A DNA stretch of 64,000 bases from a virus, in IMG/VR virus record IMGVR_UViG_3300001796_000003, positions 33,044 to 97,043 of that record; one strand, given 5' to 3'. Positions 23,649 through 57,743 of the stretch are shown piece after piece. The position numbers and the translations under genes were made by a program. The number at the start of each line of letters is the position of its first letter. Position 1 is the first letter of the stretch. The notes under the pieces are model-generated. The model saw only the letters and a list, made by a program, of their open reading frames with translations, did no database searches and was not told the origin of the DNA.

Positions 23649-23657
23649 ACGCGCGTG

Positions 23658-23663
23658 TATAAT
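23658..23663 (+). promoter_or_regulatory. -10 box TATAAT overlapping an RBS hairpin
   Basis: TATAAT at 23658-23663 without a clear -35. Predicted transcription start is at about 23670, inside the loop of the hairpin at 23660-23680, so mRNA started here would lack the left arm. Confidence 0.55.
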
Positions 23664-28830: not shown

Positions 28831-29283
28831 ATGGAAAAGACTGATGTTACAGAGATTATGGATTCCGATCGTTGGTTGCTCAACAACGGGCTGGTGTCCG
28901 ATACTATCAAAAATCAGCTCTTTTTCTGTGGGTCGATTGTTCATAAGGACGTTCAGGCAGTAGAGGTAAGAGTAGTTCCAGAGAAGAAACTGGTCGACTA
29001 CATCATTTATGTCACTCCTGGTCTTCTCGAGAAGATCGCCCAATATCAAAAGCTATCTTCATCAACGTCGATATTTGGGCTATGGAGATTTAAGCGGCTT
29101 CTGAAGCGTGAGGGTTGCCTCGACTTCCAGAAGGTGCTTAATTCTTTTGTAGTTGACTATTGTGGCCCCAAGTGGGTTGCAAAAGCTAGCGTTATCAGCT
29201 TTGACTCGTATGTAGATGGTCTTGAGGCTGACAATGACGACAACGGAGACAGTGAGTTTCATCAACCGTCTGACAACGGATAA
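28831..29283 (+). CDS. Hypothetical protein upstream of the packaging genes
   Basis: 150 residues, mixed alpha/beta, ending in an acidic Asp/Asn tail (LEADNDDNGDSEF). Starts behind a TATAAT box and overlaps the next frame. No known family recognised. Confidence 0.65.
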   Translation: MEKTDVTEIMDSDRWLLNNGLVSDTIKNQLFFCGSIVHKDVQAVEVRVVPEKKLVDYIIYVTPGLLEKIAQYQKLSSSTSIFGLWRFKRLLKREGCLDFQKVLNSFVVDYCGPKWVAKASVISFDSYVDGLEADNDDNGDSEFHQPSDNG

Positions 29284-29641
29284 AGACGAACAGCAAGAAT
29301 TGTGGGTTCATTATTTAGAGAATAATGACCTTTCTGCTTTGTCAACTCACTTGTCTCAAATACGCAAACAGTATAGTGAAGAGGAATTGCTCCAAGTTAC
29401 TATTTGGAAGCAAATCAGACACCCTTCTGACCTTAATCTGCAGTGGGTCTTTGATAACTTTACTGACCTAGAACAGTCAGTTATTCACTTGTTGATATTG
29501 AATGTTTCGTTGGTGGATATCGCTAGTATTAAGTCAATTGGAATAAATCGTCTGCGTCACGTTATATCGATAATCCAACAAAACCCTGCGTGGGACACTT
29601 TTTCCACTTCGTGGTATAAAGATAGTTTAAAAGGAACTTAA
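29234..29641 (+). CDS. Helix-turn-helix protein, sigma region 4-like
   Basis: 135 residues from the ATG at 29234 (ATG at 29216 is in frame too). The C-terminal half FDNFTDLEQSVIHLLILN, followed by SLVDIASIKSIGINRLRHV, has the E..V..LL..N.S...IA....I...R...I pattern of sigma region 4/LuxR-like HTH domains. It may bind DNA or polymerase, or be a packaging regulator since it precedes the terminase genes. Overlaps the upstream gene by 50 nt. Confidence 0.6.
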   Translation: MTTTETVSFINRLTTDKDEQQELWVHYLENNDLSALSTHLSQIRKQYSEEELLQVTIWKQIRHPSDLNLQWVFDNFTDLEQSVIHLLILNVSLVDIASIKSIGINRLRHVISIIQQNPAWDTFSTSWYKDSLKGT

Positions 29642-34375: not shown

Positions 34376-35419
34376 TTAACGGGTAAGTAGGTGTGGCTTG
34401 CTTTCGGCCATACCATTGCCCGTTATGGTGACGTATTGCGCGTATCGGTGAAGATCCTTCAGGTTGTCTACACCGGAATAGCTGAAACCAGAGCGCATCC
34501 CGCCAACCAGTTGTTCCACGATATCTGCTACTGAATTTTTAAAGTCTACAATTGTTGATTCACCCTCAGGAGTGTACGAAGAGTTTGTTTGAGCCACTGA
34601 ATTACGTGCTGCTCTGCTGGCCATGCCGCGATACTCCTTTACCCAACGATACTGACCATCTTTATCCACAAGCTGACGAAATTCGCCAGGCGTCTCCGGA
34701 CTTCCCGCAAACAGGGACCCTACCATTATCATGTCTGCACCAAAAGCGAGTGCCTTGACGCAATCGCCTGCGTTGCGGATACCGCCGTCAGCAATAATTG
34801 CTACATTGGGATGTGTGAGCTTAATCCTCGCGCACTCTTCAATGGCTGACAGCTGAGGAACGCCATGGCCGGTAACGATACGTGTAGTACACAGAGAGCC
34901 AGGACCAATACCGACCTTGATTACCTGTGCACCAGCATCTGCCAAACGCTGTGCAGCACTTAGAGTCGCAACATTACCTGCGATCACGTTGACCTTTGCA
35001 TCAGTTAGACAACGTACCATTTCGATCATATGTTTGCTGTCACCGTGGGCGATATCTACGTTAATAGCGAACACACCCTCATTCCAGTACTTCATGGCTA
35101 TATCGAAGTCTTCGGGTTTAACTCCGATAGAGGGAGCCGCTAGACACTTGGCCATGTGAATTTCCTTTATCCACGAGAGAACTTTTTCAGGCGTTGCGTA
35201 TCTATGTAGAAGCCCTAAACCACCAAGCTGAAACATCTTCTGCGCCATAAGAGACTCAGTGATTGTGTCCATATTGGCAGAACAAATGGGCGTAGAAAAC
35301 GGAACGCCAAAAAGACTTGTGCTTAAGTCGACATCTTTTCGCGATGCTATTTCAGAATACTGGGGTACAAGAAGTACATCATCAAACGTTAATGCATTGG
35401 ATTTAATTAGGATTGGCAT
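34376..35419 (-). CDS. IMP dehydrogenase/GMP reductase family enzyme without CBS domains
   Basis: 347 residues from the ATG at 35419 (a TTG-started extension is less likely). Motifs: [14 protein letters not shown] at the N-terminus, [13 protein letters not shown] with catalytic Cys177, [16 protein letters not shown] (phosphate binding), and YRGMAS with EG later. The tail ends [10 protein letters not shown], as in IMPDH. The length equals GMP reductase and the CBS pair of typical IMPDH is absent. It would convert IMP to XMP or GMP to IMP, changing guanine nucleotide supply. Only gene on minus strand here; leaderless-type promoter ahead. Confidence 0.88.
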
Positions 35420-35425
35420 GAGGGG

Positions 35426-35431
35426 ATTGTA
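35426..35431 (-). promoter_or_regulatory. -10 box TACAAT (minus) six bases before IMPDH ATG
   Basis: On the minus strand GGTACAAT then CCCCTC then ATG. Start would coincide with the A of ATG. No RBS is present, which supports a leaderless transcript. Divergent from a plus box at 35454. Confidence 0.55.
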
Positions 35432-35453
35432 CCAGATTAGATCGCCTTTATGG

Positions 35454-35459
35454 TAAAAT
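35454..35459 (+). promoter_or_regulatory. Candidate -10 box TAAAAT before HNH gene
   Basis: GGTAAAAT on the plus strand, 20 nt before the ATG at 35480 with RBS AAGGAG. Divergent to the minus promoter at 35426. Confidence 0.35.
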
Positions 35460-35479
35460 GACAACTAAGGAGACCTAGT

Positions 35480-37588: not shown

Positions 37589-37803
37589 TGTCCGAGGTCA
37601 AGATCATCTTGAAGCGTTCTCCTCGGGACCCGGAGAATGGCGTATGGATTGATGGTGTTAAGGTTCCAGATGTCAAGGATGTTACGGTTTACGGTGCGGC
37701 CACCGATGCACCGCAAGTAGTCGTAACCCTTCTTCCCAAGAAGATCACCATCGGGCTTGATAACCCCGATGTTGATATGGTGCCCGATGACCACAAAAAC
37801 TAA
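37588..37803 (+). CDS. Small hypothetical protein
   Basis: 71 residues, beta-rich (VTVYGAATDAPQVVVTLLPK), starting within the TAATG of the previous stop. No domain recognised. Confidence 0.65.
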   Translation: MSEVKIILKRSPRDPENGVWIDGVKVPDVKDVTVYGAATDAPQVVVTLLPKKITIGLDNPDVDMVPDDHKN

Positions 37804-37804
37804 G

Positions 37805-38197
37805 ATGGATGATCGTTGCCCTCGGGCATTGAAGGAAATGCCAAATACTTTTTGCCCGCTCGCGGTTACTCGCCTGCGGGCAATTCGTACCGCGGGGAGA
37901 GAGCTTTCTGAAGAAGAGGAAAATGCCCTACCGGGTTGTCCTTGGGCAGTAAATAGTCAGACCGCTAATTATTGCTTCTTTAAATACATCGATGAGCTAG
38001 CTGCTGAACACACCCTCTCTGATGTTGAGGTTGCTGCACTCAATTGTCTTTCAGTTGATACTGTAAAGAAGGTTGAAAAAGAAGCAATGGCTAAGATTAA
38101 AGCTCGCGATGAGTTTGCTAACCTTCGGAAGAATCTAGAAGGTGAGGCTATTTTTGATGAGCCTCACGCCGATGGTGAGTATGGGTTTGGTAATTAA
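37805..38197 (+). CDS. Cys-rich protein with sigma region 4-like HTH
   Basis: 130 residues from the ATG at 37805; an ATG at 37787 is also in frame. The N-terminal half has spaced cysteines (DDRCPRALKEMPNTFC, GCPWAV, NYCFFKYI), a candidate metal or Fe-S site. The C-terminal half TLSDVEVAALNCLSVDTVKK has the HTH pattern of sigma region 4. A small DNA- or polymerase-binding regulator is likely. It ends inside the TTAA shared with the convergent gene's stop. No RBS was obvious for either start. Confidence 0.65.
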   Translation: MDDRCPRALKEMPNTFCPLAVTRLRAIRTAGRELSEEEENALPGCPWAVNSQTANYCFFKYIDELAAEHTLSDVEVAALNCLSVDTVKKVEKEAMAKIKARDEFANLRKNLEGEAIFDEPHADGEYGFGN

Positions 38198-39072
38198 CTC
38201 TTGCCAAGTTCAGGATTCGCTAGCGTAGTGCGCAAGTGATTCCACTTCTTTTCGTTGTGATCCCACGCCCAATGGTGCTTCTGCACCTGCGGGCGAACGA
38301 CACGATGCATTTTTTCTTCGCCGGTAGTCGGATCCTTCTCCTTGAAGAAGTGATTAGTATCGACGATCTTCCCAGTGGTGGTTGCCCCCTGATTGTGGAA
38401 GGTTCCCTGTTTGATGCGCGTTCCAGGTGCTCCAGTCTTCTCATCAGTAAAGGGTTCGTGGGGTGGCTGAAGTTCTTGTTTCACCTTGGGTGCTACAGCA
38501 GGCTTGATGCCTTTGTCGATATTCGTCTGCTGCTCCTGAAGTGCGTTGCGAGTCTGACCAGCTTCGGCGACCGCCCTCATTCCTCTACTGCCATGGTTGG
38601 CTAGGAATTCAGTTGTTGCTTGCCATGCTGCCTTGCGCCCCTGTGCTCGCTGATTCGCCTCAATATCCTGAGCAAGTCCGGCGTCGTTGTCAGGGTTAAC
38701 TGCTGCAGCGGGAGCACTTGCTTGCGGCTTCACGCTAGGAGTGATACCAGTAACAGGGCGATTGTTCGCGGCGAGAGCGTCTCGTCTGCGCTTCGCGTCC
38801 GCTTCAGCGGCCTGCTCTGCCGAGGTTAAACGGGAGCGCTTCTCTGCTACTTGCTCTCTTGTCAAGTCAGGGTTGTCACCGGTTAGATGATTTACAGGAC
38901 GAAGTCGCTCAAGAGGATGGGCTTTAGGTGCAGCGGGCTTTGATTGGGCTTGAGCTGCCTTTGCTTTCTTGTCGGCAATAAACTGCTCGATGAGCTTTAG
39001 CTTCTCTTCATCAGTCTTGGCCTTCTCTAGAGTCCACTGCCCATTGCCGGCAATCTTGATCAACTCGTTCAT
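38194..39072 (-). CDS. Ala/Lys-rich protein, possible virion or internal protein
   Basis: 292 residues, rich in Ala, Lys, Gln and Pro with long low-complexity stretches, plus a His/Trp-rich C-terminus (QVQKHHWAWDHNEKKWNHL). The N-terminus carries NGQWTLEK, shared with the protein at 17234. It follows the prohead protease on the minus strand, one nucleotide after the protease stop. It may be an internal protein processed by that protease. No catalytic motif. Confidence 0.6.
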   Translation of the reverse strand: MNELIKIAGNGQWTLEKAKTDEEKLKLIEQFIADKKAKAAQAQSKPAAPKAHPLERLRPVNHLTGDNPDLTREQVAEKRSRLTSAEQAAEADAKRRRDALAANNRPVTGITPSVKPQASAPAAAVNPDNDAGLAQDIEANQRAQGRKAAWQATTEFLANHGSRGMRAVAEAGQTRNALQEQQTNIDKGIKPAVAPKVKQELQPPHEPFTDEKTGAPGTRIKQGTFHNQGATTTGKIVDTNHFFKEKDPTTGEEKMHRVVRPQVQKHHWAWDHNEKKWNHLRTTLANPELGKS

Positions 39073-41351: not shown

Positions 41352-42797
41352 ATGAACGACACAGTTAATCAAGTATTACAGGGTCTCGAGTCCGGTCTCG
41401 TGTCAGCGGCTGAAATCGAGGCACTCAACAAGGCAATCAGCGCAGGCTACGGCGGCGCTGGCCGGCCCACGGACCTCACCTATGGTGGCGTCCTCCAGGC
41501 CGAGTCACTCGAGACGACTCTCAAGAGCGTCACGTTTGACATGAAGAACCTCAAGATGTGGCCTGCTGTTTCAGTTGATAAGGCATACAACTTGTTCGAG
41601 CAGTACAATCGTCTAATCGCGTATGGTAGCGATTCGGCGCCGTATATTGGCGAAGGCGGAGCTCCTCAAGAGGAAGATTCGACCTACGTACGTGACGGTC
41701 AGAAGATCGTGTTCTTCGGTACGCGTCGTCGCGTTAGCCACCAGATGACGCTTGTGCGGGTCACTGTCGGCGATATCGTGGCGCAGCAGGCCAAGGAAGG
41801 CACGATGCACCTTCTGAAGAACGTTGAGCGCGAACTCTATTGGGGTCACGCGCACTACCAGAATCAGAGCACTGGCGCAATGACGGGTTCAGACGCAGAT
41901 CTTCCCTCGAGCTCGATCGCGATGAGCGGCCTCTTGAAGCAGCTACTCAAGGGTGACACCGATGCGCAGATGATCTCCGGTGATTTCAACGGTTATGGCA
42001 ACACGAGCTCGATCCTCCAGGATCTCGCGGGTGCGGTTATGACCCAGGACGACGTCGAAGCCCTCGCGGTTATTGCTCTTGAGAACTTCGGTTCGCCGAG
42101 CGAGCTCCACGCTGAGCCTGCGGTAATCTCGGCCTTCGTCAAGCAGTTCTATCCTCAGTTCCGTTCGGCGCCAGGTCTTGCTAACCAGACTGTCGGCTAC
42201 GACGTGTCGAAGATCCAGACTACGGCTGGTGCGATCGACCTCAAGCCCAACCTCTTCCTCCGTCCTCGCAGCGGCGTTCGCGCTGTCGCGAGCGGCGTCT
42301 CAGCTCCCGCTGCGACGTTTACGGCGTCTGGTGCGGCTGCTGGTTCAGGTTCAACCTTTGCGGCTGGTACGTACCAGGTTAAGGTTACAGCGGTTAACGA
42401 CAGCGGCGAATCGGCCCCTGTTGCTTCAGCGGCTGTTGTCCTCACCCTTGGTCAGAACATCGACGTGACTATCGGCAGCGTCCCTGCTGGCGTGAAGTCA
42501 TGGAAGGTGTATGTCTCGGCTCCGGGTGGTGCGGCAGGCACCGAGAAGTTCGCGGGTAACTGGGCAAATGCTGGTGCGGGTGTTTATCGCTGCGCTGGTG
42601 CGAAGCTCCCCGGTCTCGGCGAAGCGTTCCTCCTCGACATGAGCGCAGAGAACATGCGCTTCAAGCAGCTTGCTCCTCTCTCGAAGATCAACTTCGCGAT
42701 TGTGACCACTGCTCTCGAGTTCGCGATTGTGCTCTACGGTGCACTCTTCGTCTACACGCCGCGCTTCAACTGCGTGTTCAAGAACGCAGGCAAGTAA
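41352..42797 (+). CDS. Major capsid protein with Ig-like insertion
   Basis: 481 residues. N-terminal propeptide region (1-60) contains AGYGGAG and GGVLQAESL, shared with the protease. A capsid core with DMKNLKMWPAVSVDKAYNLF and GKVERELYW-type segments follows. Residues about 315-415 form a beta-rich Ig/FN3-like domain (TYQVKVTAVNDSGESAPVAS), then the core resumes to IVLYGALFVYTPRFN. Strongly biased codons (CTC, AAG, GAG) fit very high expression. Strong terminator follows. HK97 fold is inferred. Confidence 0.88.
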   Translation: MNDTVNQVLQGLESGLVSAAEIEALNKAISAGYGGAGRPTDLTYGGVLQAESLETTLKSVTFDMKNLKMWPAVSVDKAYNLFEQYNRLIAYGSDSAPYIGEGGAPQEEDSTYVRDGQKIVFFGTRRRVSHQMTLVRVTVGDIVAQQAKEGTMHLLKNVERELYWGHAHYQNQSTGAMTGSDADLPSSSIAMSGLLKQLLKGDTDAQMISGDFNGYGNTSSILQDLAGAVMTQDDVEALAVIALENFGSPSELHAEPAVISAFVKQFYPQFRSAPGLANQTVGYDVSKIQTTAGAIDLKPNLFLRPRSGVRAVASGVSAPAATFTASGAAAGSGSTFAAGTYQVKVTAVNDSGESAPVASAAVVLTLGQNIDVTIGSVPAGVKSWKVYVSAPGGAAGTEKFAGNWANAGAGVYRCAGAKLPGLGEAFLLDMSAENMRFKQLAPLSKINFAIVTTALEFAIVLYGALFVYTPRFNCVFKNAGK

Positions 42798-43357: not shown

Positions 43358-43360
43358 TGT

Positions 43361-43366
43361 TATAAT
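43361..43366 (+). promoter_or_regulatory. Candidate -10 box TATAAT before first beta-helix spike
   Basis: TATAAT 21 nt before ATG 43388, RBS AGGAG in the leader. No -35. Confidence 0.5.
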
Positions 43367-46120: not shown

Positions 46121-46125
46121 AATTG

Positions 46126-46131
46126 TATAAT
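46126..46131 (+). promoter_or_regulatory. -10 box TATAAT eight bases before deformylase ATG
   Basis: TATAAT then TCATTAGA then ATG (46140), no RBS; near-leaderless. TTGTGT lies 15 nt upstream as a poor -35. Confidence 0.5.
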
Positions 46132-50519: not shown

Positions 50520-51052
50520 AGAAACCTGGTCCCGATGCTGCTGACTTAACCGGTCAGAAGTTCAATCTTCTGACTGTTTTGTCTAGAGTTGAGAATCAAG
50601 GTGAGAAAGTAAGATGGTTGTGCCGCTGTGAATGTAGTAAAGAAGTTGCTATGCAGGCTTGTGCCTTAACTACCAATCATACTAAGTCTTGTGGTTGCAG
50701 AGGAAGAGAGAAAGCTTTTGGTTTTATTGGTCAAATGTATGCTAATTATAAGATTGCGGCTAAGAGACGCGGCCTCAGTTTTGAACTTTCTCGATTAGAA
50801 TTCTCTGATTTGATCAAGCAAAATTGTCACTACTGTTTCTCTCCTCCTGTCTCAAAAGAAAATAGGGCAGATGTAAAGAAGGGTGCCTTTAAGGAGACTA
50901 TTCCGGTCAATGGCATCGATCGAAAGGACAACACCATCGGCTATATCCTAGCAAATAGCCTTCCTTGTTGCTCTATTTGTAATAGGGCTAAGTTAAATAT
51001 GTCTTATGAAGACTTCACCGCTTGGATAAACAGGCTCAAGGAGCGGATCTAA
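50507..51052 (+). CDS. HNH endonuclease, homing type
   Basis: 181 residues. N-terminal CRCECSKEV plus CGCRG, central FIGQMYANYKIAAKRRGLSF, C-terminal GIDRKDNTIGYILANSLPCC with CNRAKLNM, the HNH core of many phage homing nucleases. AT-rich codons. Inserted between the A1-like gene (overlap) and the terminator at 51057. Probably mobile. Confidence 0.88.
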   Translation: MENIKKPGPDAADLTGQKFNLLTVLSRVENQGEKVRWLCRCECSKEVAMQACALTTNHTKSCGCRGREKAFGFIGQMYANYKIAAKRRGLSFELSRLEFSDLIKQNCHYCFSPPVSKENRADVKKGAFKETIPVNGIDRKDNTIGYILANSLPCCSICNRAKLNMSYEDFTAWINRLKERI

Positions 51053-51056
51053 TTTT

Positions 51057-51076
51057 CCGAACACTAGTTCGGTTTT
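51057..51076 (+). terminator. Rho-independent terminator after HNH gene
   Basis: CCGAAC and GTTCGG form a 6-bp stem with loop ACTA, followed by TTTT. Short but canonical order, in a 73-bp gap. Confidence 0.6.
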
Positions 51077-51090
51077 AGGTAGATAGGTGA

Positions 51091-51124
51091 TAGTATGGCT
51101 CTTGTGAGTTTTTCAGGAGCCATA
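51091..51124 (+). promoter_or_regulatory. Promoter-like box overlapping an RBS-sequestering hairpin
   Basis: TGATAGTAT (TAGTAT at 51091-51096) is an extended -10-like box. TATGGCTCTTG (51094-51104) pairs with CAGGAGCCATA (51114-51124, one G-U), an 11-bp stem with a 9-nt loop. The right arm carries the RBS AGGAG (51115-51119) for ATG 51126. A start near 51103 would remove the left arm and free the RBS. Confidence 0.55.
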
Positions 51125-51125
51125 C

Positions 51126-51437
51126 ATGAAGACAGCAAATAACGTTTCAGGTTCTCTTCGCCAGTCAGAGTCGGGCCTCTGCTGGGAAGAAAAGATTACT
51201 AATAGCACTGGAAGTCTTGAAGTTCTTAAGGCTGGAACCGTTCGAGTTCGAGCCACTGGTGCTACGACGGTAACGATTGACGGTGTTCTTGCCGCGACTA
51301 TGTCAGCAGGCGAGATCATCATCTTTAACGTCGGAGATGGCAATCCCGACGACAGCAAGCCTACAGTTACTGTGGTGATAGGTGCTGTTGCAGCTTTTGT
51401 TCAAGTTGCGCGTGAAACACCGCGCCAAAAGTCTTAA
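51126..51437 (+). CDS. Small beta-rich protein under hairpin control
   Basis: 103 residues, beta-rich, Thr/Val/Gly-rich (VRVRATGATTVTIDGVLAAT), with a short C-terminal basic tail. A decoration or small virion protein is likely from composition and neighbours, not proven. RBS buried in an 11-bp stem that overlaps a promoter-like box. Confidence 0.65.
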   Translation: MKTANNVSGSLRQSESGLCWEEKITNSTGSLEVLKAGTVRVRATGATTVTIDGVLAATMSAGEIIIFNVGDGNPDDSKPTVTVVIGAVAAFVQVARETPRQKS

Positions 51438-51447
51438 TAGGTGGCCC

Positions 51448-52734
51448 ATGGAACTAAATTCCTTTAAGGCTGTCCTATTGCGTAAGGCAGAAGGAAACAA
51501 CGGCCTACAGACTTTTATTAAGAGTATTGCTGATGAGCGCTTCGCAGATGTTGTTATTGAAGTCTTAGAGAAGATGCCTCGTGCTACTGCTAGCACTGGC
51601 AGTAAAGCCAACGGTCCCATTACTGCTTTTGGGGCCAACGCTTCTACTATTGACACAAACATGATGCGCGATGCGCTCGGGCATCACTTGTCACACTACA
51701 AGGCCGCACTGAAGGCGCATCATGCTGCTCCTGAAGGTAGCCCTGAGAAGGCGAAGTTTCGTCAGGTTGCAGATGCTCACATGGATCATTTGTTTCCTAT
51801 TATGCACTTGGCCGCTCGGGCGGCCAACCACAGCAAAAACAGCAAAAATGCTTTCGATCTGGATTATCCAAAAATTGCTCCTTGGGAAACCAACTATACT
51901 AAGTTGACACGCAACGCGAAGGGAGATGGTCCACTTCGTGATCCTAAACTTCTACGCGTTCGTACTAAGAATAGCGGCAGTATCACCAAAAACACTAAGG
52001 ATTGGGGTTTCTTAGAAATGCCTCCACATCCTGGCCATGAAGATAACGCTACAATGCCTCACACAAGTGGCTATCCTTGGGAAGAAATTCAGTTGGGTAA
52101 GCCAGCTGACATTGATGCTAAGAAGGCGTATATTCACATAGAGGACGTGGAAGCAAAGCCGGAATTCACTCCACACGAATTCGATAATCATCCAATTCGC
52201 GGCGTGCAAGATGCACAGAACGAACACCTATCAGAGGCGCGTTTGCAGCAATATGCTGCTGATTTGGCCAAGTGGCATGGCGGAGAGCACCAGAAAAACT
52301 GGATCGCTCGCATGCGCTCGCTTCCACCTGGAGAATTTGCAAGCAGAGGATCTAAGAAAGCTGGTCACTTATATGACGGCATTCCTCTGCGCCCACATGA
52401 GCCACATGTTCATGACCATCCTGTAGTTCCGAAGATGGGTTCAAAGAAAGAAGAAGACGTCGCTCCCGCTCCAGCTGCCAGTAAGGCCGTTGCTCCAGTG
52501 GTGAGAGCTGCAGCGCCCGCACAATCTGCCCCAGCGTCGACGCAACCTGTGCCTGTTCAAACTACACCGCAAGTTCAGCCCACTGTTGCTCCTGCTCCCA
52601 AGGCTGCTCCATCAAACACAATGGATTCAGCTGCTCTCATTGAGAGAATCAGCGCTCTTCCGCCCGAGCTACAAGCCAAATTTATGGATCTTCCGGGTGT
52701 GAAAGATATGTTGCTCGCACGTAATAAGAAATAA
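51448..52734 (+). CDS. His/Ala-rich virion-like protein
   Basis: 428 residues from ATG 51448 (an earlier in-frame start overlaps the previous gene). N-terminus FKAVLLRKAEG is helical; middle has Gly/His/Asn-rich HHLSHYKAALKAHHAAPEG and GHEDNATMP segments; C-terminus has Pro/Ala/Gln-rich low complexity and a final LIERISALPPELQAKFMD. No recognised domain. Position in the structural block and disorder suggest a virion or internal protein. Confidence 0.65.
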   Translation: MELNSFKAVLLRKAEGNNGLQTFIKSIADERFADVVIEVLEKMPRATASTGSKANGPITAFGANASTIDTNMMRDALGHHLSHYKAALKAHHAAPEGSPEKAKFRQVADAHMDHLFPIMHLAARAANHSKNSKNAFDLDYPKIAPWETNYTKLTRNAKGDGPLRDPKLLRVRTKNSGSITKNTKDWGFLEMPPHPGHEDNATMPHTSGYPWEEIQLGKPADIDAKKAYIHIEDVEAKPEFTPHEFDNHPIRGVQDAQNEHLSEARLQQYAADLAKWHGGEHQKNWIARMRSLPPGEFASRGSKKAGHLYDGIPLRPHEPHVHDHPVVPKMGSKKEEDVAPAPAASKAVAPVVRAAAPAQSAPASTQPVPVQTTPQVQPTVAPAPKAAPSNTMDSAALIERISALPPELQAKFMDLPGVKDMLLARNKK

Positions 52735-52743
52735 GAGGAACAC

Positions 52744-54423
52744 ATGAATTCAACACTAGATGTTTTGGAAGATTTTCTTATGAAGGCTCGTCGACGACTC
52801 TCCGACGAGAATCCTGACTATTCAGATACAGATGAAGAGCAGGATAGTGATGGATTAGAAACCTGGGATGAAGATGAGCTGCAGGGTGATGACGCCGACG
52901 CATGGTTAAGTCAGAATGATCCAGCCAAAAAGCCCGAAGATGAAGATATGTCGATGGACGAGGATGCTGAGTACGAAGAGAAGCCTAAGGCAAAAGCTAA
53001 GGCTACATCTCCAGCGCCAGTAATTCGTAGAGCGGCTAAGCAGAACACTGCTCCTACTCCCACACCCCCTGCTGCTCAAGCACAGGCGCCACGTGAGCCT
53101 AAGCGAGTTGTAATGCCGTCGCCTGCTTCTGCGGCTTCTGCCACAAAAGAGTCTGATGACATGCAGCCTACTCGCGAAGAGCTTGCGCAGCTGCGTGAAT
53201 ATACTCGTGCTTGGTCTTCGCGCGCTCGCGACAAGGCGCGTCTAGAAGCGGAAGCGCACAAGAACCCAGGTCGTCATCACGAGGGTCGTATTGTAGAAGC
53301 ACGCAATCTTTCTCACGCTGATCGTCAACAAGCATATAACGACTTTACTCAGTCTCAGGACTTTCAGAATGCAGATCCGTTTACGCAAATGGAAATGGAA
53401 GCGCAATTTCACTCAGATTGGGAAAAGAACAACCCGGAGCATTCGGTGAATGCGTTAAAGGCCCATGCCGAAGCGCACAAGAAAGGTACTCACGCTAAGG
53501 GGCTTTATGCGCAGGCCAAGGATGAGAAGATTCGTCACATCGCTGGCGGCGGAGTTAACCCCGAAGCAGTGTCACTTGAAGAAGGAATGCAACACGCTGG
53601 TGGTAGTCGTGAAGAGGACGATGCGGCGCCTAGCGGCATTTCTCAGGATAAGAGCGCAGCATTTGCGTCTGGTAACAGAGATTTCGTTGACCAGTACATG
53701 AAGCGTTACGATGAAAAGAAGAAGCAGCCTACAGGCGATGTTGATCCCTATGCTGCTGCAGATGAAAAGCGCGCAGACGTTGCTTCAGTAATTGGAGATG
53801 GTCCGCAGTTTAAGGATGCATCTCACAAGCGCGCTCACGACATGCTCATTAGTAAGTACTATCCGCTGATCGAGCGGGCAGCTCGTCGCACACTTGGGAA
53901 GATGGGGCTCACTCAAGCCGCAGAGAGCGGTCAGCTTGATGATAGAGCGCTACATGAAGCCGGGATTCATGCTTTATATCAGGCGATCAATGATTATGAT
54001 CACGATCATCCGAGTAAGGCTAGCTTCACGACTCACCTCAATCGAAAGATGAATGGTCTCATGCAGACTGCGCTTAAAGCTCAGGACGAAATCCCCGCAG
54101 AACTTCGTGCTGGTGCATCTAAGTTTAAGCAAGCACAGCGCCTCGAGAACGTTGCTCCCGTTAAGCATACTAACAAGGAGGGTGTTACAACAATCATTAA
54201 TCCTGGAGCACCCAAGCCTACTCCTATTTCAGGCCCCACGGCAAGTCCTCCGGCTGCTCCGCCTCGGGCACCGAAGCCCGCGATGCCAGTAGCGCCGAAA
54301 CGCCGTCCAGCTGCTGAAGTTGCAGCCGCACATCCACCAGAAATACAGGAACGCTTGAAGCGAGTCTCCGCTCTTAAGCCTAAACGCAACATCAATTTTG
54401 TTGGCCCCGATGAAGAGGAATAA
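52744..54423 (+). CDS. Acidic Pro/Ala-rich protein with a sigma-70 region 2-like domain
   Basis: 559 residues. The first 100 are acidic and repetitive (DEEQDSDGLETWDEDEL), then Pro/Ala-rich linkers. Residues about 360-460 have HDMLISKYYPLIERAARRTL, LDDRALHEAGIHALYQAIND, YDHDHPSKASFTTHLNRKMN and AQDEIPAELRAGA, closely matching sigma region 2 (LIxxYxPLI; DLxxxGxxGLxxAIxxFD; FxTYAxxRIxG). No region 4 was seen in this protein. Role as promoter factor, perhaps virion-carried, is inferred. Downstream of the 51448 gene by 9 nt. Confidence 0.75.
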   Translation: MNSTLDVLEDFLMKARRRLSDENPDYSDTDEEQDSDGLETWDEDELQGDDADAWLSQNDPAKKPEDEDMSMDEDAEYEEKPKAKAKATSPAPVIRRAAKQNTAPTPTPPAAQAQAPREPKRVVMPSPASAASATKESDDMQPTREELAQLREYTRAWSSRARDKARLEAEAHKNPGRHHEGRIVEARNLSHADRQQAYNDFTQSQDFQNADPFTQMEMEAQFHSDWEKNNPEHSVNALKAHAEAHKKGTHAKGLYAQAKDEKIRHIAGGGVNPEAVSLEEGMQHAGGSREEDDAAPSGISQDKSAAFASGNRDFVDQYMKRYDEKKKQPTGDVDPYAAADEKRADVASVIGDGPQFKDASHKRAHDMLISKYYPLIERAARRTLGKMGLTQAAESGQLDDRALHEAGIHALYQAINDYDHDHPSKASFTTHLNRKMNGLMQTALKAQDEIPAELRAGASKFKQAQRLENVAPVKHTNKEGVTTIINPGAPKPTPISGPTASPPAAPPRAPKPAMPVAPKRRPAAEVAAAHPPEIQERLKRVSALKPKRNINFVGPDEEE

Positions 54424-55251
54424 ATGACAATCTCTAAAACACCACAAGTCCAGCCTTTCCCGTCGTGGGCTATTGAGCAAAATGGCGCTGAGCGTTACTC
54501 CCCAATTCCCAATGCTGCGGATATGAAGCGTCGTAGTTTATTCGGCATCCCACTCGTGTCAAGACTCACCAACGAGACGGTATCTGATGAAACATTGGAT
54601 GACTACATTCGTCAGGCTATTTCGGAGATAGAGCACGAACTAGATCTGTATATCACTCCTACGCAGTTTCAGGAGCGTCACGACTATGATAGAGAAATGC
54701 AGTTCTGGAGCTTTGGCAATCTTAAACTCCACCACTCGCCAATCTTAAACGTAAATAAGTTCCAGCTTACATTTAATAACGGTGTGCCGGGAGTCAATCC
54801 CCTCGTAGATATGCCACTAGAGTTTATTCATGTTCAGCCGCAAGATGGGACGATCCAGCTTGTTCCTACCCAGGGGGTAAGCATTTCTGGTTTTGTTGCT
54901 AGTGTTTATAGTGGATTGGGTTATCACGCCTTTAACTCACAAGCAATTACTCATTGGCCTGGTGCAGTTCTAGTTGAATACACTGCTGGATTCCCCGAAG
55001 GACAAGTACCTGCCCTGTTGGCAGGTTTAATTGAGAACATTGCAGCCTATCGCTTCCTATCCACTCTAGGTCCCGTTCTGTTTCCTTACTCTTCAGTTGG
55101 TATAAGCATAGATGGGACATCGCAGAGTGTTGGTACTCCAGGACCAGCTTTCTTAGCACAGCGATTAGGTGAACTGGAAAAGATTATTCAGCAGCAGAAA
55201 GAAGCAGCGCGCGGACACTATCAAAAGCGCTTCCTCATTGATTATTTGTAA
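54424..55251 (+). CDS. Head-tail connector / neck protein
   Basis: 275 residues. DETLDDYIRQAISEIEHELD followed by LYITP is the helical signature of phage gp6-type head-tail connectors. Starts immediately after the previous stop. The rest is beta-rich with a C-terminal amphipathic helix (LGELEKIIQQQKEAARGHYQ). It would join head and tail. Confidence 0.7.
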   Translation: MTISKTPQVQPFPSWAIEQNGAERYSPIPNAADMKRRSLFGIPLVSRLTNETVSDETLDDYIRQAISEIEHELDLYITPTQFQERHDYDREMQFWSFGNLKLHHSPILNVNKFQLTFNNGVPGVNPLVDMPLEFIHVQPQDGTIQLVPTQGVSISGFVASVYSGLGYHAFNSQAITHWPGAVLVEYTAGFPEGQVPALLAGLIENIAAYRFLSTLGPVLFPYSSVGISIDGTSQSVGTPGPAFLAQRLGELEKIIQQQKEAARGHYQKRFLIDYL

Positions 55252-57719: not shown

Positions 57720-57737
57720 TTTAACTTGTAGGGTTGT

Positions 57738-57743
57738 TATAAT
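57738..57743 (+). promoter_or_regulatory. Candidate -10 box TATAAT
   Basis: GTTATAAT, 51 nt before ATG 57794. Followed by a direct repeat of TTCTAGTTTTT at about 57755-57776. No -35. Confidence 0.4.

Follow-up and report, generated by a model that had tools for sequence, protein, structure and literature searches.

A FliA/WhiG-class sigma region 2 domain within a head-operon protein of large uncultured myoviruses and its candidate region-4-like partner

The gp55/gp33 pair of bacteriophage T4 is the textbook example of a sigma factor split into two proteins, one of which reads the promoter and the other of which acts on the flap side. In the single-chain sigma-28 factor FliA, the DNA-reading residues are Y70 together with R74, D81 and R91, which read the sigma-28 -10 element, and D43 belongs to the core-binding helix. 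T4 gp33 and sigma region 4 are structurally unrelated (PMC7892883). In phage AR9, the phage subunit gp226 gives a multisubunit RNA polymerase its promoter specificity, much as a sigma factor does (PMC9209446). SPO1 uses a gp34/gp33 late sigma (PMC9429907) and has head and tail modules related to those of the phages considered here, including phrog_772 and the tail sheath phrog_279. This article describes a protein with an embedded sigma region 2, encoded at 52744 within a head operon, and a second protein, encoded at 37757, with a region-4-like helix-turn-helix (HTH). At slightly better than even odds (probability of about 0.52), the two form a two-subunit phage sigma that steers the host RNA polymerase to promoters consisting of a -10 element only, the likeliest being those of the GTTATAAT class.

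The window, i.e., the whole 64,000-nt stretch that was analysed, matches positions 95353-159352 of a record of 172,623 nt at 100% identity; the two ends of that record have 127 nt in common, and it is therefore probably a complete genome. The focal ORF (52744..54423, + strand) encodes 559 amino acids and has 15 distinct IMG/VR homologs at the same locus, 36-49% identical across the full length, which were collected using a neighbouring gene as anchor and subsequently by profile search. The family is found in approximately 16 uncultured large myoviruses, and its position in the head operon is constant. The members are mostly disordered proteins of 500-650 amino acids in which the sigma-2 domain is embedded. 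Briefly, the window protein consists of an acidic N-terminus, Pro/Ala linkers, a conserved helical middle, the sigma-2 domain, and a conserved C-terminal tail. Alignments reveal a conserved N-terminal motif, LxxFLxKARRRxSDE (52756..52809, + strand), and the conserved helical middle, also seen in the structure model, spans aa ~140-312 (53161..53679, + strand). A C-terminal motif, HPPE(I/V)xxRxKR (54331..54363, + strand), follows a Pro/Ala linker and was obtained from alignments and a motif scan. None of these three non-sigma parts has recognised relatives. A role of the C-terminal PPE motif as a common packaging tag was considered in the motif scan and rejected, the pattern being too loose for the claim. 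The whole protein had zero tblastn matches among 50,697 named phage records, and the only matches of the consensus sigma-2 domain there were two short fecal phage contigs without annotation. Furthermore, no report of a sigma domain within a phage structural-operon protein was found in the open-access literature.

On the evidence of profile searches, aa ~363-466 of the 52744 protein (53830..54141, + strand) is a sigma-70 region 2 (2.1-2.4) of the FliA/WhiG class, followed by the start of region 3. The NCBIfam model TIGR02479 (FliA_WhiG) matches the window protein alone over aa 368-466 (E 5.9e-6) and is matched in 16/16 family members (best 1e-12). A profile of five homologs retrieved six sequences from the PDB, all of them sigma factors (WhiG best at 5.5e-6; FliA at 2.8e-4), and with a domain-only profile of the 16 members, sigma factors alone rose above noise (FliA, 2.8e-8; WhiG, 1e-7). 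The nearest PDB relatives are FliA of P. aeruginosa and E. coli and WhiG of Streptomyces. Single-sequence searches with the 52744 protein gave 0 matches in Pfam and a single one in PHROGs, to phrog_32691 ('RNA polymerase sigma factor'; E 0.035); homolog profiles are thus required for a domain that such searches miss or barely see. The TIGR02479 match stops at profile position 90 of 224 and reaches 26 bits where the cut-off is 190, and the protein falls outside the full FliA/WhiG definition, in which regions 2, 3, and 4 stand on one chain and the family cut-off is reached. The AlphaFold2 model, covering aa 136-475 with a mean pLDDT of 68, has the predicted region 2 fold of the sigma-70 family: in a Foldseek search against the PDB, ranks 1-43 are all sigma chains, among them P. 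aeruginosa sigma28 (9wsm_F; probability 1.00, rmsd 2.8 Å over 106 columns). The best E value is 0.14, a weak figure that reflects the only moderate confidence of the model and its largely non-sigma sequence.

These results bear out the sequence-only reading of this DNA, which had located a sigma region 2 at 53821-54110 (aa 360-456) and had named an HMM search and a structure prediction as checks; the first succeeded through homolog profiles and NCBIfam, and the second through the Foldseek ranking. Its extent of aa 360-460 stops short of the end of the match, which continues to ~aa 466 at the start of region 3. The motif that it had read as F.TYA..RI.G is in reality F.TH(L/A)..K(I/M).G, with an invariant histidine in place of the tyrosine, and the identification as sigma-2 stands. 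Compared with the first four relatives, identity is 50-61% in the sigma-2 part versus 41-47% over the whole protein, and in these alignments the domain is the most conserved portion of the family.

The proposed partner is encoded by an ORF that opens at 37757 and likely starts at 37787 (37787..38197, + strand), and was recognised by Pfam, TIGR02937, and co-occurrence. Among 14 relatives of the protein, Pfam Sigma70_r4 was matched in 10 (best 1.1e-5) and TIGR02937 in 9; the match of the window copy alone to Sigma70_r4 lacks significance. The family alignment suggests a C-terminal HTH resembling sigma region 4.2 (~38018-38107, + strand), preceded by four invariant Cys (37817-37975, + strand), so that the protein appears to carry a region-4-like HTH. 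An HTH of this kind had previously been placed at 37805; its character is supported through the relatives, its location is shifted, and the window copy by itself is insufficient for the assignment. The partner gene is present in one copy in 12 of the 13 records bearing the sigma-2 protein, and in the exception (G012) the contig ends before the expected place of the partner. Similarly, the one larger record bearing the partner only (G014) ends before the expected place of the sigma-2 gene, and the other partner-only contigs are 14-23 kb long. Both genes are therefore present in every sufficiently long contig.

A third HTH protein (29216 gene family; 29234..29641, + strand) was found in all five large relatives by tblastn and alignment. 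The HTH, which the sequence-only reading had also likened to sigma region 4, is conserved in these five relatives and is only marginally sigma-like, since TIGR02937 matched a single member at 0.046, with weak matches in G008 and G011. Members begin with (D/E)xxxQxLWVHYL and end with the region-4-like HTH, and the family is perhaps a degenerate small sigma. Apart from it, neither a further sigma-like gene nor a complete sigma was detected in the five near-complete relatives at the sensitivity of the search, nor was an Rpb2-type (multisubunit) RNA polymerase found in them. A search for T7-type RNA polymerase matched nowhere and left its controls likewise unmatched, and is uninformative.

Promoter-like elements were counted in the genomes of five related phages (G001, G005, G007, G008, and G010; 147-177 kb), in which two classes of -10-type promoters are predicted with the canonical -35 absent, as the sequence-only reading had anticipated in proposing promoters of the -10 element only: GTATAAT, which is genome-wide and often leaderless, and GTTATAAT, which is structural. 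GTATAAT occurs at 129 intergenic sites versus 54 within genes in these five genomes, of which approximately 13% is noncoding, and the -35 position upstream of these sites holds no sequence information. The arrangement GTATAAT-N6-ATG occurs 48 times, each other spacing a few times only, and this enrichment implies that many mRNAs are leaderless and begin with the A of the ATG; examples are seen in L038, L050, and L075 and in the window at 46126 and 46993. Sites of this type are kept at the orthologous portal, head protease, and thymidylate kinase genes. In the window, elements of this general class lie upstream of the peptide deformylase gene 46140 (46125..46131, + strand) and of the 23685 gene (23657..23663, + strand).

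The GTTATAAT class has A or T at -15 and precedes the tail sheath gene, the upstream neighbours of the sheath, and other structural genes; window elements lie upstream of the tail-protein gene 43388 (43359..43366, + strand) and of the 57794 gene (57736..57743, + strand). Eighteen of the 19 placed GTTATAAT sites are in head/tail blocks and 0 in the replication block, where 32 GTATAAT sites are found. The two distributions differ with P 7e-5 per site and, by gene group (10/0 vs 13/13), with P 0.006, values that serve as a guide only because sites of related phages are non-independent, the gene calls come from a simple script, and the block borders were set by the analyst. GTTAAC was considered as a conserved -35-like box before GTTATAAT and rejected, being present in only two gene groups; all 18 sites together give a weak TT near -30. 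One gene bearing a GTTATAAT promoter-like element, L038:8722-10215, lies upstream of the tail sheath gene and encodes a 497-aa protein with a Nudix-like part that overlaps a portal-like PHROG match.

A sigma-2 domain without region 4 on its chain, a co-occurring region-4-like protein, no other detected sigma, and two promoter classes lacking a -35 element are most simply accounted for by a two-subunit sigma. The 52744 protein would supply region 2, binding the core polymerase and reading the -10 element, and the 37757 protein would provide a region-4-like module on the flap side; together they would redirect the host RNA polymerase core to phage promoters that have a -10 element and no canonical -35. 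That GTTATAAT is confined to structural genes, e.g., that of the tail sheath, makes this class the natural and most plausible target, and the split sigma would then probably be late-acting. We infer the binding to RNA polymerase, the cooperation between the two proteins, and the assignment to the GTTATAAT class. A cascade may be envisaged from general GTATAAT promoters to the split sigma and from there to the structural promoters. Such a cascade fits because the operons of both subunits carry a general GTATAAT promoter in related phages: GGTATAAT lies 31-37 nt upstream of the orthologs of 51126, with which the focal operon begins (51126..51437, + strand), in 4/5 phages, the window copy being without an exact TATAAT there, and GTATAAT-type sites lie upstream of the orthologs of 36171, the operon containing the 37757 partner. 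Several points weigh against the two-subunit sigma. The FliA DNA-reading residues Y70, R74, D81, and R91 and the core-helix residue D43 are replaced; the window copy of the 37757 protein supports a region 4 only weakly, and its structure model is of low confidence with no sigma near the top of the Foldseek results; and the domain resides in a mostly disordered protein of 500-650 amino acids, far bigger than T4 gp55.

The host RNA polymerase could also read both promoter classes by itself. A host sigma would then serve GTATAAT and GTTATAAT alike, and the 52744 protein would serve a few degenerate promoters or only co-activate, an account to which we give about one chance in four. TATAAT with the adjacent G is readable as an extended -10 by a housekeeping sigma, and the genome-wide use of GTATAAT agrees with this; the restriction of GTTATAAT to structural genes, however, is left unexplained by a single specificity. 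In addition, TATAAT is absent from two sampled stretches (~90 kb) of the distant relative Mx1, although host and G+C differ.

The residue changes, obtained by aligning the 16 family members with E. coli FliA, bear on whether the domain still reads promoters. The fold residues of FliA region 2 are retained, and a two-residue insertion occurs in the loop preceding F428. The equivalent of FliA Y70 is an invariant His (16/16 members), that of R74 an invariant Lys, and that of D81 a Thr, Ala, or Ser; R91 is not retained. The core-binding helix has lost D43, and an invariant Glu stands in place of Q46. As the DNA-reading residues are replaced, any promoter reading by the 52744 protein would have its own specificity, and a non-sigma role is possible. 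The domain might accordingly be a former sigma-2 fold that no longer reads promoters and has been exapted as a module for structure, scaffolding, or the blocking of RNA polymerase. This is unlikely: the loss of the FliA residues, including the invariant Tyr-to-His change, and the placement in a long disordered protein amid head genes speak for it, but sigma-2 is the best-conserved portion of the protein among the first four relatives, the gene co-occurs with a region-4-like gene, and no other sigma was detected in the near-complete relatives.

The genomic setting raises a further possibility. The 52744 gene, which the sequence-only reading had placed among head/tail genes, lies among head genes: terminase, portal, head protease, and major head protein (phrog_752 by PHROG match; 41352..42797, + strand) surround it, together with an A1-like DNA-transfer protein. 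The gene order 51126-51382-52744-54424-55169-56421 is retained in five large relatives. The upstream neighbour (51448..52734, + strand), the ORF of which opens at 51382 and the homologs of which begin at ATG 51448, has a His-rich helical core and a Pro/Ala tail, with homologs 39-46% identical at related loci. Downstream is a head-completion/adaptor-type protein of phrog_772, SPO1 gp6.3-like (54424..55251, + strand; PHROG 7.7e-33), whose tblastn matches are in Herelleviridae and Mx1. Such a position fits a virion protein. Directly before the 51126 gene, 51051-51126 contains a terminator-like hairpin with a T-run (CCGAACACTAGTTCGGTTTT) and then an inverted repeat, TATGGCTC...GAGCCATA. On the minus strand of the head block are a dehydrogenase-like gene (phrog_9582; 34376-35464) and an uncharacterised gene (38194-39072), neither with orthologs at the equivalent place in the other four large relatives. 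In Mx1 (L007:20836-27142), the adaptor-type gene is directly followed by genes for very large proteins annotated as kinase and as NUDIX hydrolase, the latter gene being 4.4 kb long, and enzyme-like annotations within the head block recur across this group of phages. Two 52744 homologs are on contigs binned with Bacteroidota MAGs; as an indication of the host, this binning was rejected as too weak to use.

The 52744 protein might thus be assembled into the head via its conserved N-terminal, middle, or C-terminal parts and leave it together with the DNA on ejection, sigma-2 directing the host RNA polymerase from the first minute, e.g., to the genome-wide GTATAAT class. We regard this, too, as improbable. 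The gene is always within the head operon, flanked by the 51382 gene and the gene of the phrog_772 adaptor-type protein, the long conserved stretches outside sigma-2 must have some function, and GTATAAT promoters also stand upstream of replication genes; position is nevertheless weak evidence alone, as Mx1 has a different sigma gene beside phosphoesterase and terminase genes, and no matches to virion-protein families were found for the remainder of the protein. Least probable of all is the fuller version in which a sigma-28-class region 2 in a head-operon protein is packaged, ejected, and paired with a zinc-binding region-4 protein, so as to read -10-only, often leaderless promoters.

The sigma-2 and region-4-like pair suggests a two-part switch that would bring the host RNA polymerase to phage promoters, and 52744/37757 is a candidate regulator of structural-gene transcription in large uncultured myoviruses without an annotated one. 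If the two-subunit sigma is real, it would be a second, independent dissection of a sigma factor, from the FliA class, with a genuine-looking region-4 partner and promoter classes visible in the sequence, and a natural test of the minimal sigma needed for promoter opening.

Among described systems, AR9 gp226 serves a phage-encoded non-virion polymerase, and no Rpb2-type polymerase was found in the near-complete relatives. Judged by one head protein, the adaptor-type 54424, the Myxococcus phage Mx1 is the nearest among named phages; its putative sigma factor WNM70309, encoded next to the phosphoesterase and terminase genes, is a single 335-aa protein unmatched by the focal sigma-2 domain profile. 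In PHROGs, the SPO1 gp34 family was unmatched by the 52744 protein. What the 52744 family shares with FliA and WhiG is region 2 together with the start of region 3; unlike them, the 52744 chain lacks region 4, has only the beginning of region 3, and embeds them in a 559-aa disordered protein. Unlike T4 gp55, the 52744 protein is FliA-class, far larger, and not of the gp55 family by PHROG profile, and unlike T4 gp33, the 37757 partner carries four Cys and what appears to be a region-4-like HTH. A split sigma like gp55/gp33, as had been suggested from the sequence, is thus upheld as regards the sigma-2 domain, the separate co-occurring partner, and the lack of another detected sigma, and falls as regards structural likeness. 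The parallel is one of function and layout only, without family membership: as in T4, region 2 is on a separate chain, a second phage protein is proposed for the flap side, and -10 promoters without -35, here predicted from sequence, would be served by the host core polymerase.
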